Shown here one piece after another: positions 18,160 to 44,714 of a DNA stretch of 44,714 bases. Both the position numbers and the translations under genes were made by a program. This stretch comes from Desulfoluna sp. (lineage in GTDB: Bacteria; Desulfobacterota; Desulfobacteria; Desulfobacterales; Desulfolunaceae): positions 1 to 44,714 of the forward strand of contig NZ_JAQYWB010000047.1 of the NCBI RefSeq assembly GCF_030145185.1, written 5' to 3'. Position 1 is the stretch's first letter, and the number at the start of each line of letters is the position of its first letter. The notes beneath the pieces are model-generated. The model was not told the DNA's origin. It saw nothing but the letters and a program-made list of their open reading frames with translations, and ran no database searches.

Positions 18160-18171
18160 CAAAGATTAAAG

Positions 18172-18475
18172 GTAACTATTCAGCTCATGTCACCCAATCG
18201 CCACGCACCGATACGGCAGGGTCGATGAAGAAGGAAACCGTATAAAGGGTCTGGCCTTAGGTAACCTTGTCGATGTGAAAGGTAGGGTGCGCCGTGCGCA
18301 CCGATTAACGTCCGATAAACCTGCAACGCCGCATTTTGTGATAAATATTGAGACGGGGCTGGAGGTTTGCGTGACGTTGAACGGTGCGGGAGCCGCACCC
18401 TACGGGCTGAAACGTTTTTACGAAACTTTTTTCAAAAAGAGACCAGCCAGAGACAGGATGAAGCTGAATAGTTAC
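18172..18475. mobile_element. MITE-like element with 14-bp terminal inverted repeats
   Basis: gtaactattcagct at 18172-18185 is the exact reverse complement of agctgaatagttac at 18462-18475. The interior has no open frame of note but contains a REP pair of the family found near the RAYT gene (18281-18403). The sequence gattaaaggtaac flanks the left end and recurs right after the right end. Its size of about 304 bp, the inverted ends and the lack of coding sequence fit a non-autonomous transposable element. The family is not identified. Confidence 0.55.
18281..18403 (-). repeat. REP pair (BIME) of the RAYT-linked family, reverse orientation
   Basis: Palindrome ggtagggtgcgccgtgcgcacc (18281-18302) faces ggtgcgggagccgcaccctac (18383-18403). 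The stretch between contains ggaggtttgcgtgacgtt, the near-exact reverse complement of aacgtaacgcaaacctcc in the repeats at 43.3 and 44.2 kb. It is therefore one unit of that family, inverted and located 24 kb away. Confidence 0.8.
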
Positions 18476-18534
18476 GATTAAAGGTAACGATTCAGCTCTT
18501 GTGAAATCAAGAGAGATTCCGGTGGCGAGGTGTA

Positions 18535-19295
18535 TAGAAATGGGACCACCGAACGGGGACACTGCCAGGGTTTTGACAACGGAGTGGAGGCACCACCGCA
18601 CCCTGCTGGGCGCGCCGTGCTCCGCCGCGGCTTTTTTTTGCCGGGGGCTTGGCCCCAGCCCGAACAACCTTCACAGCCAAAACTTGCCTCGCATCCGTTA
18701 TCACATCCCGACGAGCGGCTTCCTCCCATCGGTATCGCGTAAATGCCGCGACGGAGCACGGCGCGCCCGAAAGACAACACCGATGATAAATTGAAGAGAG
18801 AGGGTCCACCGAACCGGAACACCGATAGGGTTTTCACATTGGAATGGATTCTCTACGGCCCCCGACTGGGCGCGCCGTGCTCCGTCGCGGCTTTTTTGGA
18901 CGGGGGCTTGGCCCCAGCCCGAACAACCTTCACAGCCAAAACTTACCCCGCATCCGTTATCACTTCCCAACGAGCGGCTCTCTCCCACCGGTATCGCGTA
19001 AATGCCGCGACGGAGCACGGCGCGCCCGAAAAACAGCACCGTTAAGAAGTTGAAGAGAAATGGGGCCACCGAACAGGAACAATGCCAGGATTTTGAGAAT
19101 GGAGTGGATTCACCACGGCTCCCGACTGGGCGCGCCGTGCTCCGCCGCGGCTTTTTTGGGCGGAGGCTTGGCCCCAGCCCGAACAACCTTCACAGCCAAA
19201 ACTTGCCTCCCATCCGTTATCACATCCCGACGAGCGGCTCTCTATCCCACCGGTATCGCATAAATGCCGCACCGGAGTGCGGCGCTCCAGGGGAC
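18535..19295. repeat. Three tandem 260-bp repeats with 24-bp inverted arms
   Basis: The landmark gggcgcgccgtgctccg recurs at 18608, 18868 and 19128, exactly 260 bases apart each time. In the middle copy the arm at 18868-18891 is perfectly complementary to 19004-19027, with 112 bases between. In the first copy the arms (18608-18631 and 18745-18768) have one mismatch. In the third copy the right arm is degenerate. Each unit also carries gcttggccccagcccgaaca and cttcacagccaaaact. Open frames through the array shift between copies and read as low-complexity peptides, so it is not coding. Confidence 0.88.
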
Positions 19296-39948: not shown

Positions 39949-39958
39949 GAAAGGGGAT

Positions 39959-40014
39959 AGGCTGAAGGCTAAAGGCTAAAGGCGATAGGCTAAGGGCGAT
40001 AGGCTAAGGGCTAA
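39959..40014 (+). repeat. Eight phased 7-bp repeats after flgK
   Basis: From 39959 the sequence reads as consecutive heptads without slippage: aggctga, aggctaa, aggctaa, aggcgat, aggctaa, gggcgat, aggctaa, gggctaa, then degenerate gggaagg and gaagtaa. The consensus is RGGCTAA. A short relative (aggctaaaggcggctaa) covers the fliW stop at about 42207-42225. Confidence 0.85.
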
Positions 40015-40052
40015 GGGAAGGGAAGTAAGCGTAAACGGGGTGCCCCATTGGC

Positions 40053-41497: not shown

Positions 41498-41758
41498 ATG
41501 CTCATACTGACAAGAAAAGCGGGCGAAAAAATCCGTATTGGCGACGACATCACCATCCATGTGGTGGATATCGGCAAGGGAAACGTCCGAATCGGGGTCG
41601 AAGCCCCCAAAGAGGTGACCATCATGCGCGACGAAGTGGTGGAACGCATCGAAAAAGAGAACCTCATCGCCGCCAACAGGAACCGAAACACCCTGGTTCA
41701 TGCGGCGTCCATGCTGAAAAATAAAAAAATGCTACCGGGCAAAAAAAACAAGGAGTAA
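41498..41758 (+). CDS. csrA: Carbon storage regulator CsrA
   Basis: The 86-residue protein has the complete CsrA core (MLILTRKAGEKIRIGDDITI, GNVRIGVEAPKEVTIMRDEV) and a basic C-terminal extension of about 25 residues (ending KKMLPGKKNKE). CsrA binds GGA motifs in mRNA leaders, and in many bacteria represses flagellin translation until FliW displaces it. AGGA stands before the ATG. The end of the gene contains the AAGGAG ribosome site of fliW, so the two are translationally linked. Confidence 0.97.
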   Translation: MLILTRKAGEKIRIGDDITIHVVDIGKGNVRIGVEAPKEVTIMRDEVVERIEKENLIAANRNRNTLVHAASMLKNKKMLPGKKNKE

Positions 41759-41762
41759 CACG

Positions 41763-42215
41763 TTGATCATCCCTACGCGACAATTTGGCCCCGTTGACAT
41801 CGATGAAGAGAAAATCGTCTCCATGCCCAAAGGCATGCCCGGATTTCCAGGCAAAGAGCGGTACATCCTCCTCTCCCACGAAGAGATCGACCCCATCCTC
41901 ACCTTTCAGAGTGTGGAGGACCCCGACCTGGCTTTTGCCCTCATGGACCCCTTTCTCTTCCTGACCGAATACGCCATCGATCTGGACGCCGCCGTGAAAG
42001 AGATGAACTGGGCCGTAGAAAAACCCGAGGAGCTCTTCCTCTATACCATCATCAACGCCAGCGGTGACTGCCCCGAAGAGATCACCGCCAACCTCGCCGG
42101 TCCCCTGCTCGTCCACACCGGCCTGAATGAAGCCCTGCAGCTGCTTATCCCCGATGAGCGGTACTCCCCCAAACACTCGATTTTTGCGGCGGAAGAAGAA
42201 AGGGCGGAAGGCTAA
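41763..42215 (+). CDS. fliW: Flagellar assembly factor FliW
   Basis: The 150-residue protein has the FliW pattern (MPKGMPGFPGKERYILLSHE, SVEDPDLAFALMDPFLF, LNEALQLLIPDERYSPKHSI). FliW binds either flagellin or CsrA; when flagellin is exported, free FliW sequesters CsrA and allows flagellin synthesis. The start is a TTG, fixed by AAGGAG seven bases upstream across the csrA stop. The last codons and stop (gcg gaa ggc taa) lie inside a heptad-type repeat like that after flgK, so the C-terminus may have been reshaped by the repeat. Confidence 0.95.
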   Translation: MIIPTRQFGPVDIDEEKIVSMPKGMPGFPGKERYILLSHEEIDPILTFQSVEDPDLAFALMDPFLFLTEYAIDLDAAVKEMNWAVEKPEELFLYTIINASGDCPEEITANLAGPLLVHTGLNEALQLLIPDERYSPKHSIFAAEEERAEG

Positions 42216-42241
42216 AGGCGGCTAAAAGAAGCCCCAGGTAT

Positions 42242-42433
42242 GCGGTGCGCAAGCGCACCCTACCATCTCCCAAAACCATCCCGTATCACCACCGAATCTG
42301 CGAGGGCCGTAGGGTGCGGCTCCCGCACCTTCTACCGCAACGCGAACCGCCAGCCCCTGACCTCAAACATTCATAGTCCCTTGGCGGTTGGCCAACGCCC
42401 CGGTTTATCGGCGGTGCGCAAGCGCACCCTACC
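42242..42433. repeat. Three REP palindromes between fliW and yaaA
   Basis: Palindromic units lie at about 42244-42264 (ggtgcgcaagcgcacccta), 42309-42331 (gtagggtgcggctcccgcacc) and 42412-42433 (ggtgcgcaagcgcaccctacc). All belong to the family of the repeats around the RAYT gene. They occupy the space between the convergent fliW and yaaA ends, a typical REP position. Confidence 0.85.
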
Positions 42434-42475
42434 CTTTTCCATCGGCCGCGAACGAGGCCCTGGGCATTGGTTTGG

Positions 42476-43240
42476 TTATGTCGCTTCCCTCACAAAAAAC
42501 AGACTGTTCTCCGTTGAAAGAGCCTCCTCAAACCGATAGCCATTCACATCGAACCCCGTCACATCATCCACACACTCAACCCGGTTCTCGATGACCCACC
42601 GCGCCATGGCCCCCCTGGCCCGCTTGGCATGAATGGCCACAGTCTTCAGGGCATCGCCCTTCTTCTCCTTGAACGCCACGTCCACGAAACGCCCCCGTGA
42701 GCTCAGCCTCTTTTTATCCACGGCCTTGGCGTACTCCCCCGAGGCGAGGTTCAAAAGCACCCCGTCAGACGCCATGAGCCCCATCAGGTGATCCGTCACC
42801 GCCTCCTTCCACCACCTGGAGAGCACCCCGAAGCCGGGCAACAAAAGTCCCATCTCCAGACGATACGGCTCAACGCCCGTCAAAGGCGAAAGCGCCCCGT
42901 AAAGCCCGGAGAGAATCCGCAGTCGCCCTACGGCCCAGGCCACGGCCTCCGGAGAAAGGCTCTCCGCATCCAGCCCCTGGTAGGCATCTCCCCGGTAGGC
43001 AAAAAGTGCCGGTGTGGTCCCCATGGCCCCAAATGAGAAGCTTCGAAACCTCTCCACCGTCCCTGCGGCAAGGCCATCACTGACCTTCATGAGCGCCCCC
43101 ATCTCGTCCGTGGAACCCCCCCGCAACACCGCCACCAGCTCCCGGGTCCTCTCCTCGAAGAAAGGACGTTCCATATTTGCTGCCCACACCGGGGCCCCTG
43201 CCTCCATCCGCTTGGCCGGGGCGAGGATTGTGATCATCAT
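42476..43240 (-). CDS. yaaA: YaaA-family peroxide stress protein (DUF328)
   Basis: The 254-residue protein has the YaaA/UPF0246 motifs (MITILAPAKRM at the start, RILSGLYGALSPLTGVEPYR followed by LEMG, VLLNLASGEYAKAVDKKRL and a later FKEKKGD stretch). In E. coli YaaA limits free iron and DNA damage under peroxide. AAGGAG seven bases before 43240 supports this start; the frame extends to 43306 through a repeat and is not used. An ATG at 43237 is also possible. It is flanked by REP-type repeats on both sides. Confidence 0.93.
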   Translation of the reverse strand: MMITILAPAKRMEAGAPVWAANMERPFFEERTRELVAVLRGGSTDEMGALMKVSDGLAAGTVERFRSFSFGAMGTTPALFAYRGDAYQGLDAESLSPEAVAWAVGRLRILSGLYGALSPLTGVEPYRLEMGLLLPGFGVLSRWWKEAVTDHLMGLMASDGVLLNLASGEYAKAVDKKRLSSRGRFVDVAFKEKKGDALKTVAIHAKRARGAMARWVIENRVECVDDVTGFDVNGYRFEEALSTENSLFFVREAT

Positions 43241-43261
43241 AAAAATTCTCCTTGAAAAACC

Positions 43262-43340
43262 TTGCCTCAGGCGGCGAGGGTGGCGAAGCCACGGTAACGA
43301 AAACACCTCGAAAGCTGGTTTGCGTCATCATCGGACATGC
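43262..43340 (+). repeat. Dispersed hairpin repeat, copy C
   Basis: The stretch with ggtggcgaagccac, aaaacacctcgaaagc and ggtttgcg matches the minus strand of 19530-19596 closely. It lies directly upstream of yaaA and directly before a REP pair. Confidence 0.65.
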
Positions 43341-43344
43341 GACC

Positions 43345-43485
43345 GTAGGGTGCGGCTCCCGCACCTTCTAACGTAACGCAAACCTCCGGCCTGTTCCCCT
43401 GAACCATTTCACCATAACAGGCCACTGCAAGAAAAAGCGATGTTGGATTTTTGTGTGATCAATGGTGCGCACGGCGCACCCTACC
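43345..43485 (+). repeat. REP pair (BIME) downstream of the RAYT gene
   Basis: gtagggtgcggctcccgcacc (43345-43365) is followed by ttctaacgtaacgcaaacctccggcc. About 98 bases further on comes the partner palindrome ggtgcgcacggcgcaccctacc (43464-43485). The order equals one unit of the tandem array at 44167 and beyond. Confidence 0.87.
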
Positions 43486-43523
43486 CTTTTCCGGTACATC
43501 ACCGGCACACGACCGTTTTCCCG

Positions 43524-44069
43524 TCACGATTCGCCAAAATTACCGGTCATATCACCACCCCCGCCCCAATGGGGTGCATAGACCTCACTATTCACATACC
43601 GATGAAATGTGGACCAAGGCCAATCCGCAACCCGTTCAACGACACCATGCTTCACCGGGTTAAAATGAATATAATCCATGTGCGTTTCAAAATCCCGTTC
43701 ATCCCGGATCCGGTGTTCCCAAAACCGTCGCTGCCACAAGGTACCTTCCTGTCGAGCCTTACGGGATTTTGTCGTGAAGCCCTGGCGTGGGAACAAATCG
43801 CCACAGCAGATGGTCACATGCCGTTTGATGCGGGACCACCGGCTGCTGAAATCAGCGTCACCCTCGGGCAGGGTCCAGATACAATGAAGATGGTCCGGCA
43901 AAAGCACCCATGCTTCGATAGAAAAAGGAGCTACTTCCCGAACACGCTGAATGCTGGTTCGCAATGCAGCCCGTACAGGCTCTTCGCACAGAACGGGCTG
44001 TCTGCGGTGAGTTATCACCGTAAAGAAAAACGATGCGCCAGGTGTTGATGCACGACTGTAATTGGACAT
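43524..44069 (-). CDS. REP-associated tyrosine transposase (RAYT, Y1/HUH family)
   Basis: The 181-residue protein is a Y1 transposase relative of IS200/IS605 TnpA. The HUH metal site is LLPDHLHCIW (His60 and His62). The likely catalytic tyrosine is Tyr133 in HMDYIHFNPVKHG, followed by WPWSTFHRYV, all typical of RAYTs. RAYTs cut and join single strands at REP hairpins and are thought to have spread REP sequences; they are single-copy, domesticated-looking genes. The start at 44069 (MSNYSRASTPGASFFFTVIT) is chosen because the upstream extension reads through a REP unit. REP palindromes of one family lie on both sides. The active-site residues appear intact. Confidence 0.9.
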   Translation of the reverse strand: MSNYSRASTPGASFFFTVITHRRQPVLCEEPVRAALRTSIQRVREVAPFSIEAWVLLPDHLHCIWTLPEGDADFSSRWSRIKRHVTICCGDLFPRQGFTTKSRKARQEGTLWQRRFWEHRIRDERDFETHMDYIHFNPVKHGVVERVADWPWSTFHRYVNSEVYAPHWGGGGDMTGNFGES

Positions 44070-44166
44070 GCGCGACCTCTTATTTTTATAAAAAAACAAG
44101 ATATTGATGACGACACAAACAACTTTCCATTGATCCCCTTCTGTGACCCCACCAGGTTCTCGAGAC

Positions 44167-44714
44167 GTAGGGTGCGGCCCCCGCACCTTCTAACGTAACG
44201 CAAGCCTCCGGCCTGTTCTCCTGATCCATTTCACCATCACGGGCCACCGTAAGAAAAAGCGGTGTTGGATTTTTGGGAGGTAAACGGTGCGCACGGCGCA
44301 CCCTACCATTACCCCTACACCTCCGGGTTTCCGAGTGTAGGGTGCGGCTCCCGCACCTTCTAACGTAACGCAAGCCTCTGGCCTTTTCTCCTGAAACATT
44401 TCCCCATCACGGGCAACCCCATGAAAAAGCGGTGTTGGGGTTTTGGGAGGTAATCGGTGCGGGAGCCGCACCCTACCATTACCCCGACACCTCCGGTTCC
44501 CGAGCGTAGGGTGCGGCCCCCGCACCTTCTAACGTAACGCAAGCCTCCGGCCTTTTCTCCTGATCCATTTCCCCACCACGGGCAACCCCAAGAAAAAGCG
44601 GTGTTGGATTTTTGGGCGGTAATCGGTGCGGGAGCCGCACCCTACCATTACCCCGACACCTCCGGTTCCCGCGCGTAGGGTGCGGCTCCCGCACCTTCTA
44701 ACGTAACGCAAGCC
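44167..44714 (+). repeat. Tandem array of about 169-170-bp BIME units upstream of the RAYT gene
   Basis: Units begin with gtagggtgcgg at 44167, 44337, 44506 and 44675 (periods 170, 169 and 169); the fourth is cut by the window end. Each full unit has a left palindrome (gtagggtgcgg(c/t)(t/c)cccgcacc), then ttctaacgtaacgcaagcctc, a T-rich stretch (gtgttggatttttggg), and a right palindrome at 44286-44307, 44456-44477 and 44625-44646. The right palindrome is ggtgcgcacggcgcaccctacc in the first unit and ggtgcgggagccgcaccctacc in the next two. The array lies just 5' of the RAYT gene. Confidence 0.92.

Follow-up and report, generated by a model that had tools for sequence, protein, structure and literature searches.

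The window analyzed here most probably contains a REPtron, and the dispersed REP pairs of the same genome were probably copied for the most part as cargo of miniature elements (MITEs) by a second, putative transposase; we assign this reading a probability of roughly 0.77. The window is the whole stretch of 44,714 nucleotides of contig C115 of a Desulfoluna sp. genome (G000), and comparisons were made with the five other genomes of the genus (G001 to G005) and with genomes of other genera, including G006. The reading draws on the protein homology, hairpins, tandem array, terminal inverted repeats (TIRs), target duplications, copy numbers, and synteny that we observed.

The RAYT gene and the hairpins beside it

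The features of the window that are relevant to the analysis are the following.

18164..18171, no strand: left copy of the 8-bp target-site duplication GATTAAAG (right copy, 18476-18483)
18172..18475, no strand: 304-bp MITE with a REP pair; TIR GTAACTATTCAGCT at 18172-18185, complement at 18462-18475
18282..18302, forward: REP of type CGT within the MITE
18383..18403, reverse: REP of type A within the MITE
42244..42432, no strand: three REPs (TT, type A, TT) between fliW and the yaaA-like gene
42476..43237, reverse: yaaA-like gene next to the RAYT gene (ORF)
43345..43365, forward: REP of type A (GTAG GGTGCGG CTC CCGCACC), on the 3' side of the RAYT gene
43464..43484, reverse: REP of type CGT (GTAG GGTGCGC CGT GCGCACC), inverted partner of 43345 in a joint 140-nt unit
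43524..44069, reverse: RAYT/TnpA_REP gene, 181 amino acids, Y1 HUH protein (ORF including stop)
44155..44714, no strand: BIME-like tandem array with a period of 169 bp and seven REPs, truncated by the contig end (Tandem Repeats Finder)

Homology identifies the gene at 43524-44069 as RAYT/TnpA_REP. Its product matches the Pfam family Y1_Tnp and scores 197.3 bits against the NCBIfam model NF047646 (REP-associated tyrosine transposase; cut-off, 80 bits). The catalytic residue of Escherichia coli TnpA_REP is presumably Y115. H60-L-H62 and Y133 of the window's protein are invariant in an alignment of 11 members, all from the same order. In the E. coli protein (PDB 4er8; E=1.7e-44), the sole solved relative found by sequence, the stretches aligned to them are HMH and HVDYIY. 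These residues agree with the initial annotation of a Y1/HUH protein with intact HLH and tyrosine motifs. The stretch NPVKHG corresponds to the motif NP(L/V)(R/K)xG adjoining the tyrosine, which is given as a RAYT motif in PMC2817692. There is one copy of this RAYT type in G000, besides a 51%-identical RAYT elsewhere, and comparison with the G005 copy yielded a dN of 0.108 and a dS of 0.927 (dN/dS, about 0.12, similar to flgL). The gene thus combines the HUH motif and single tyrosine, the match to a curated model, and single-copy occurrence with vertical inheritance and purifying selection.

Exactly 14 perfect GTAG hairpins of one family were found in the window, starting at 18282, 18383, 42244, 42309, 42413, 43345, 43464, and, within the array, 44167, 44286, 44337, 44456, 44506, 44625, and 44675; 60 dinucleotide shuffles gave a mean of 0.03 and a maximum of 1. 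Seven are in the tandem array, which is located upstream of the RAYT gene and resembles an array at the start of contig C25; three are at 42.2-42.4 kb, the gap separating the yaaA-like and RAYT genes contains two, and the last two are at 18.3 kb. Inverted GTAG palindromes are hence present on both sides of the RAYT gene, and the earlier statement that palindromes flank it and number at least 14 in the window proved accurate. They fall into three stem/loop types, namely, GGTGCGG-CTC (type A), GGTGCGC-CGT, and GGTGCGC-TT. The type-A hairpin has a GTAG head, a 7-bp stem (GGTGCGG/CCGCACC), and the loop CTC, with a predicted energy of about -8.3 kcal/mol; the head is accordingly a tetranucleotide and not the heptanucleotide GTAGGGT proposed initially, of which GGT is the start of the stem. 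Rfam gave no match on 41500-44714. Tandem heptamers (AGGCTAA-like) were also seen in the flgK-flgL gap (39950-40017).

RAYT and REP abundance in the genus and history of the locus

A genome-wide palindrome count had been suggested in the initial annotation. The pattern GTAGGGTGCGN{2,6}CGCACC occurs 125 times in G000, 21 in G001, 23 in G002, 0 in G003, 8 in G004, and 130 in G005; it was absent from 34 genomes of other genera, and the reversed pattern, used as a control, was absent from G000. With 52 of its 62 clusters in G000 located outside predicted ORFs, the family has the high copy number and extragenic location of REPs. The RAYT type of the window was found in G000 and G005, whereas G002 contains two relatives, at 68% and 61%, and G001 and G003 yielded weak RAYT matches only (best E values, 7e-5 and 4e-4). 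A second RAYT type, B (48-51%), is present in G000, G005, and G004.

A number of observations can be made on REP abundance. (i) Type-A REPs (up to 3 mismatches) number 89 in G000, a count inflated by MITE copies, and 87 in G005, the genomes with the window's RAYT type, vs 12 in G001, 18 in G002, 1 in G003, and 0 in G004, those without it (reversed control, 0 or 1); the repeat is therefore not equally common where the RAYT is missing, and it is equal abundance that, according to the initial annotation, would have refuted the proposed REP system. (ii) REPs of the GTGCAC type (up to 2 mismatches), which flank a G002 RAYT, number 108 in G002, 24 in G004, 19 in G005, 2 in G001, 1 in G000, and 0 in G003. 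(iii) Type-B REPs number 86 in G005, 37 in G000, 22 in G001, 10 in G002, 9 in G004, and 0 in G003, with 3 in G006. (iv) G005 and G002 are sisters in the genus tree (support of 97, with 65 and 57 on the other branches) and consequently differ reciprocally, both in the RAYT that is present and in the number of its cognate REPs. (v) Counter to a rule that ties REPs to their RAYT, G004 (87% complete) has 24 GTGCAC REPs and no matching RAYT was found in it, G001 has 22 type-B REPs without a type-B RAYT, and G004 has only 9 with one.

Additional RAYT loci were noted in the same comparison. The second G000 RAYT (51% identical; L061, G000:C126:17125-17553) is flanked by its own family-B REPs, GTAGGATGGGCAAAG...CGTGCCCATC, in pairs of ~152 nt. 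The RAYT site on G002:C29 (L064 8882-9433) is orthologous to G005 L080 7469-7952, where a six-REP array of G005's own type stands without a RAYT. In G006, a RAYT-like gene that belongs to another group (L072 9313-10762) has flanking repeats based on TTCCCAGGCTGGAGCCTGGGAACGAG and lacking a GTAG head.

The gene next to the RAYT, to which we give the presumptive name yaaA-like on the basis of its protein, has relatives with 49-79% identity in all five other genomes of the genus. Its interval with fliW contains REPs in G001 and G005; none are listed for G002. In both G001 and G002 the yaaA-like gene adjoins another gene (gene X) without a RAYT in between; the G001 interval retains a relic that corresponds to the REP at 43345, with a GTTG head and similar flanks, and the G002 interval contains a degenerate REP. 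The junction of the RAYT with gene X in G000 was deduced from contig C25, which holds gene X and opens with the same kind of array. In G005, the RAYT and gene X are on one contig and the yaaA-like gene is on another, and overlaps of contig ends (C3 end/C19 start, 117 bp at 100%; C8 end/C9 end, 117 bp at 99%) leave the linkage there ambiguous. Over 775 bp, the arrays on G005 C9 and C19 share 92% identity, a pattern compatible with REP arrays having rearranged or with a knot in the assembly. Five G000 sites appear to have a REP cluster at the orthologous place in G005 (C11:10558, C87:59052, C80:5921, the 42.2-kb site of the window, and the RAYT locus). The flanks of REP insertions in G005 or G001 are mostly only ~74-86% identical to those in G000, and single-base boundaries of empty sites are not definable.

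On the simplest reading of these intervals, the RAYT would be ancestral and would have been lost in G002 and perhaps also in G001. That it instead entered the same interval independently in G000 and G005 appears improbable. Its absence from this site in G001 and G002 would suit such entry, as would its third-position GC of 0.52 (43527-44069) vs 0.75-0.76 in the neighboring yaaA-like and flgL genes. The G000 and G005 RAYT proteins, however, share 81% identity, like the host proteins flgK (81.0%) and flgL (83.2%), G005 groups with G002, and REP relics remain in the intervals without a RAYT, all of which argue for ancestry followed by loss.

REP pairs within miniature elements

Inverted pairs with GTAG outside have spans of 122 (12 pairs), 136 (13 pairs), 140 (6 pairs), 139 (2 pairs), 124 (1 pair), and 132 (1 pair) nt in the G000 DNA examined; the 140-nt pairs are those of the RAYT locus, and the 122- and 136-nt pairs are dispersed. 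Conservation of the latter two units continues past GTAG to 14-bp TIRs, GTAACTATTCAGCT...AGCTGAATAGTTAC. TIR-to-TIR lengths form clusters at 304 bp and at 356-365 bp; 192, 456, and about 630 bp were also observed. There are two families of miniature elements (304-bp and 365-bp types), each with 14-bp TIRs. A possible third type at C80:4036-4345 has a degenerate TT-type pair between TIRs, without a matching duplication. In the window, a tandem repeat with a period of 260 bp (2.9 copies, 18536-19285) is located directly beside the REP-carrying MITE.

Of 70 exact type-A REPs in G000, 13 belong to the RAYT locus (8 on C115 from 42309 and 5 on C25). Among the 57 dispersed ones, 52 continue beyond the REP pair into element sequence for 20 nt or more, in both directions in 39 cases and in one direction in 13; the remaining 5, which show none, are C11:10558, C31:71919, C68:3381, C80:5921, and C127:20963. 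With up to 3 mismatches and a distance of up to 600 bp allowed, TIRs were detected on both sides of 28 of these 57 REPs, on one side of 20, and on neither side of 9, some sites being cut by contig ends, and a stricter scan (up to 2 mismatches) placed 36 of the 104 REPs of all types in the G000 DNA examined between two TIRs; the other sites were assigned by their similarity to element sequence. There are at least 37 and at least 30 copies of the two REP-pair units in G000 (40 of 91 and 40 of 93 candidates scored, respectively), leaving out matches below 126 bits for the 136-type and below 79 bits for the 122-type. TIRs were present at both ends of 24, at one end of 20, and at neither end of 5 of the 49 unit copies (out of 67) included in this count, compared to both in 72 and one in 200 of 2,000 random positions. 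Several contigs of G000, such as C115, C25, C27, C80, C82, and C87, break off inside REP arrays or MITE copies or close to them, and assembled copy numbers may therefore be low.

Target duplications were assessed at the 29 full-length copies (15 + 14; another 59 matches were partial), with ends free to shift one base and overlapping weaker matches removed before counting. The flanking octamers were identical at all 8 positions in 12 copies and at 7 of 8 in 7 more, i.e., 19 of 29 vs 3.1% with shuffled partners, and 10 copies lacked a clear duplication. The elements thus possess both TIRs and a target-site duplication of fixed length, as MITEs do. Base conservation of the REPs was 0.960 in the 365-bp type (rest of the element, 0.964-0.973) and 0.927 in the 304-bp type (rest, 0.901-0.929, with the outer parts at 0.901 slightly below the REPs), values that are biased upward for the REPs since most copies were found via an exact REP. 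REP bases are conserved about like the rest of the element, for which reason the REPs look like cargo.

The TIR occurs across the genus, with exact ends numbering 129 in G000, 114 in G002, 106 in G001, 93 in G005, 22 in G004, and 0 in G003 and in four other genomes, and none of the 116 REPs in the G005 DNA examined and of the 11 in the G001 DNA examined is between such TIRs. Copies of the REP-carrying elements without REPs were not seen in the DNA examined, nor was an autonomous partner or transposase gene with these TIRs found in the genus DNA examined. IS66 elements generate 8-bp duplications; the two IS66-type genes of G000 have no TIR (up to 2 mismatches) within 1.5 kb, and IS66 was discarded as a parent on the basis of these two copies. 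In G001, two exact TIR ends separated by 1.7 kb (L234, G001:C1:2739486-2741171) were likewise rejected as those of an autonomous parent: no listed open frame of 150 codons is inside, and a third TIR-like end is located between them.

We propose the following course of events. (i) The RAYT product would most likely bind the single-stranded GTAG hairpin and cleave next to it, by analogy with the enzymes of E. coli and Stenotrophomonas; purified enzymes provide the model for hairpin binding and cutting (PMC8266576). (ii) The RAYT would have been inherited vertically as a single-copy gene. (iii) Inverted REP pairs (140-nt units) would have multiplied locally around the gene, giving rise to the 169-bp tandem array. 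(iv) REP pairs would have become cargo of the miniature elements with their 14-bp TIRs and 8-bp target duplications, through a supposed capture in which either an element took up a REP pair or a REP pair acquired element ends on its two sides. (v) A putative second transposase would then have copied the REP-carrying elements to dozens of sites. Of the self-propagating REP system proposed initially, the RAYT with its cognate REPs is thus upheld by homology, flanking REPs, and synteny; self-propagation is not supported for most G000 copies, as 52 of the 57 dispersed exact type-A REPs are located in sequence of elements with TIRs and target duplications.

Other explanations have to be weighed against this course of events. 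The RAYT itself could have dispersed the REP pairs as REPINs, the TIR-bounded stretches being chance or secondary sequence. The family-B pairs of G000 would fit this, as 0 of 11 loci have TIRs on both sides (3 have one nearby) and they look like ordinary REPINs of ~152 nt, as would the five dispersed type-A REPs without element sequence. A dispersed REPIN should end at its GTAG heads, however, and family A in G000 continues outward at 52 of 57 sites to TIRs with target duplications, which makes RAYT-driven dispersal unlikely for this family. It also seems rather improbable that the REP pairs are a working part of the elements, with a RAYT-recognized hairpin pair and the TIR transposase acting together in a composite element. 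This idea arises because two, possibly three, TIR element types each hold an inverted REP pair; the similar conservation of REP and neighboring bases is what cargo would show.

We regard it as very improbable that the REPs are terminators or mRNA-stability hairpins under selection, with the RAYT as a bystander. The extragenic location of the clusters is in its favor: after removal of loci wholly inside another locus, cluster midpoints outside predicted ORFs (crude ORF call) amount to the above 52 of 62 in G000, 26 of 38 in G005, and 8 of 9 in G001, where 23.4%, 20.0%, and 21.9% of the bases, respectively, are non-coding. Such selection is contradicted by the lower REP counts where the RAYT is absent and by a conservation of REP bases not clearly above that of neighboring element bases. 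Nor is there a clear preference for gaps between convergent genes (11 of 42 vs 61 of 274 background gaps), an enrichment that the initial annotation had proposed to look for.

Relation to known REP systems

To place the window's RAYT and REPs among known kinds, we surveyed 90 RAYT loci, comprising 11 from the order and the 79 best of 570 relatives in named genomes. A GTAG hairpin was present within 700 bp at 88 of the 90 loci, vs 10-49 for eleven other tetranucleotides; its stem was directly at the tag at 66 loci, and the same 11-mer occurred at least twice at 76. The stem sequence tracks RAYT similarity (Mantel r, 0.276; 0 of 2,000 permutations as high), and the nearest RAYT had an identical stem 7-mer in 52 of 88 cases, vs a shuffled mean of 11.2 (near-identical loci all included). 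The stems GGTGCGC, GGTGCGT, and GGTGCGG together account for 25 of the 88 loci with a hairpin. In a quick tree with many weak branches, GGTGCG-stem loci are spread over several phyla (Pseudomonadota, Chloroflexota, and Cyanobacteriota among them), and hairpins beginning GTAGGGTGCG flank RAYTs of several phyla. Because GTAG hairpins occur at 88 of 90 loci and these stems are shared across phyla, the window's family is an ordinary member of the GTAG super-family described in PMC3733652, and the RAYT and its 169-bp REP array together form a classical REPtron/BIME. The initial view that the repeat could not be matched to a described group was therefore too strong. The exact stem strings gtgcggctcccgcac, gtgcgggagccgcac, gtaggatgggcaaag, and gtaactattcagc do not occur in the literature text searched, and the string gtagggtgcg returned no REP paper by title among the matches listed.

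That REP abundance follows the cognate RAYT and declines after its loss is already published (Nunvar 2010, PMC2817692; Nunvar 2013, PMC3686654). Our data repeat this correlation in another genus, where the G000 count is confounded by MITE copies. REP copy number has served as a read-out of RAYT activity; since most dispersed G000 copies were apparently multiplied by unrelated transposition, REP counts can mislead unless the flanks are checked, and those of G000 are a poor measure of RAYT activity. The genus offers a compact test of RAYT-REP dependence, with sister genomes of reciprocal RAYT presence and RAYT-less orthologous sites that keep REP relics, and it sets a MITE-borne REP family beside family B, which is not MITE-borne in the loci examined. 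The RAYTs studied here evolve no faster than flgK, flgL, and the yaaA-like gene, whereas the 2010 report describes rapid evolution (PMC2817692).

The system shares with the E. coli REPtron (yafM/TnpA_REP, Y-Z REPs) a homologous RAYT, inverted GTAG hairpin pairs, and a tandem array at the gene, the E. coli rayt being flanked by BIME-2 (PMC2817692). It differs in that its REPs have a perfect 7-bp stem and a 3-nt loop without a bulge, whereas those of E. coli have a required bulge (PMC8266576). The Haemophilus GTAGGGTGGG REPs (PMC2817692, Table 1) are likewise short, GTAG-headed, near-perfect palindromes beside a RAYT but differ in stem sequence. The miniature elements resemble bacterial MITEs in their TIRs, target duplication, length of 300-365 bp, lack of a transposase gene, and tens of copies, but they carry RAYT-type REP pairs. 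No TIR element that has target duplications and contains a REP pair was found in the literature, in a search made largely without subscription papers. The GTAG-15 dimers of Anabaena variabilis, which are in long palindromes (PMC3733652, section 7), are similar in that a larger repeated palindrome encloses REP dimers; target duplications and a transposon reading are absent from that section, whereas the elements described here have 14-bp TIRs and 8-bp duplications and are of more than one type. We thus describe an ordinary REPtron together with a vehicle that is less ordinary, for which the A. variabilis dimers (PMC3733652) are a looser precedent.
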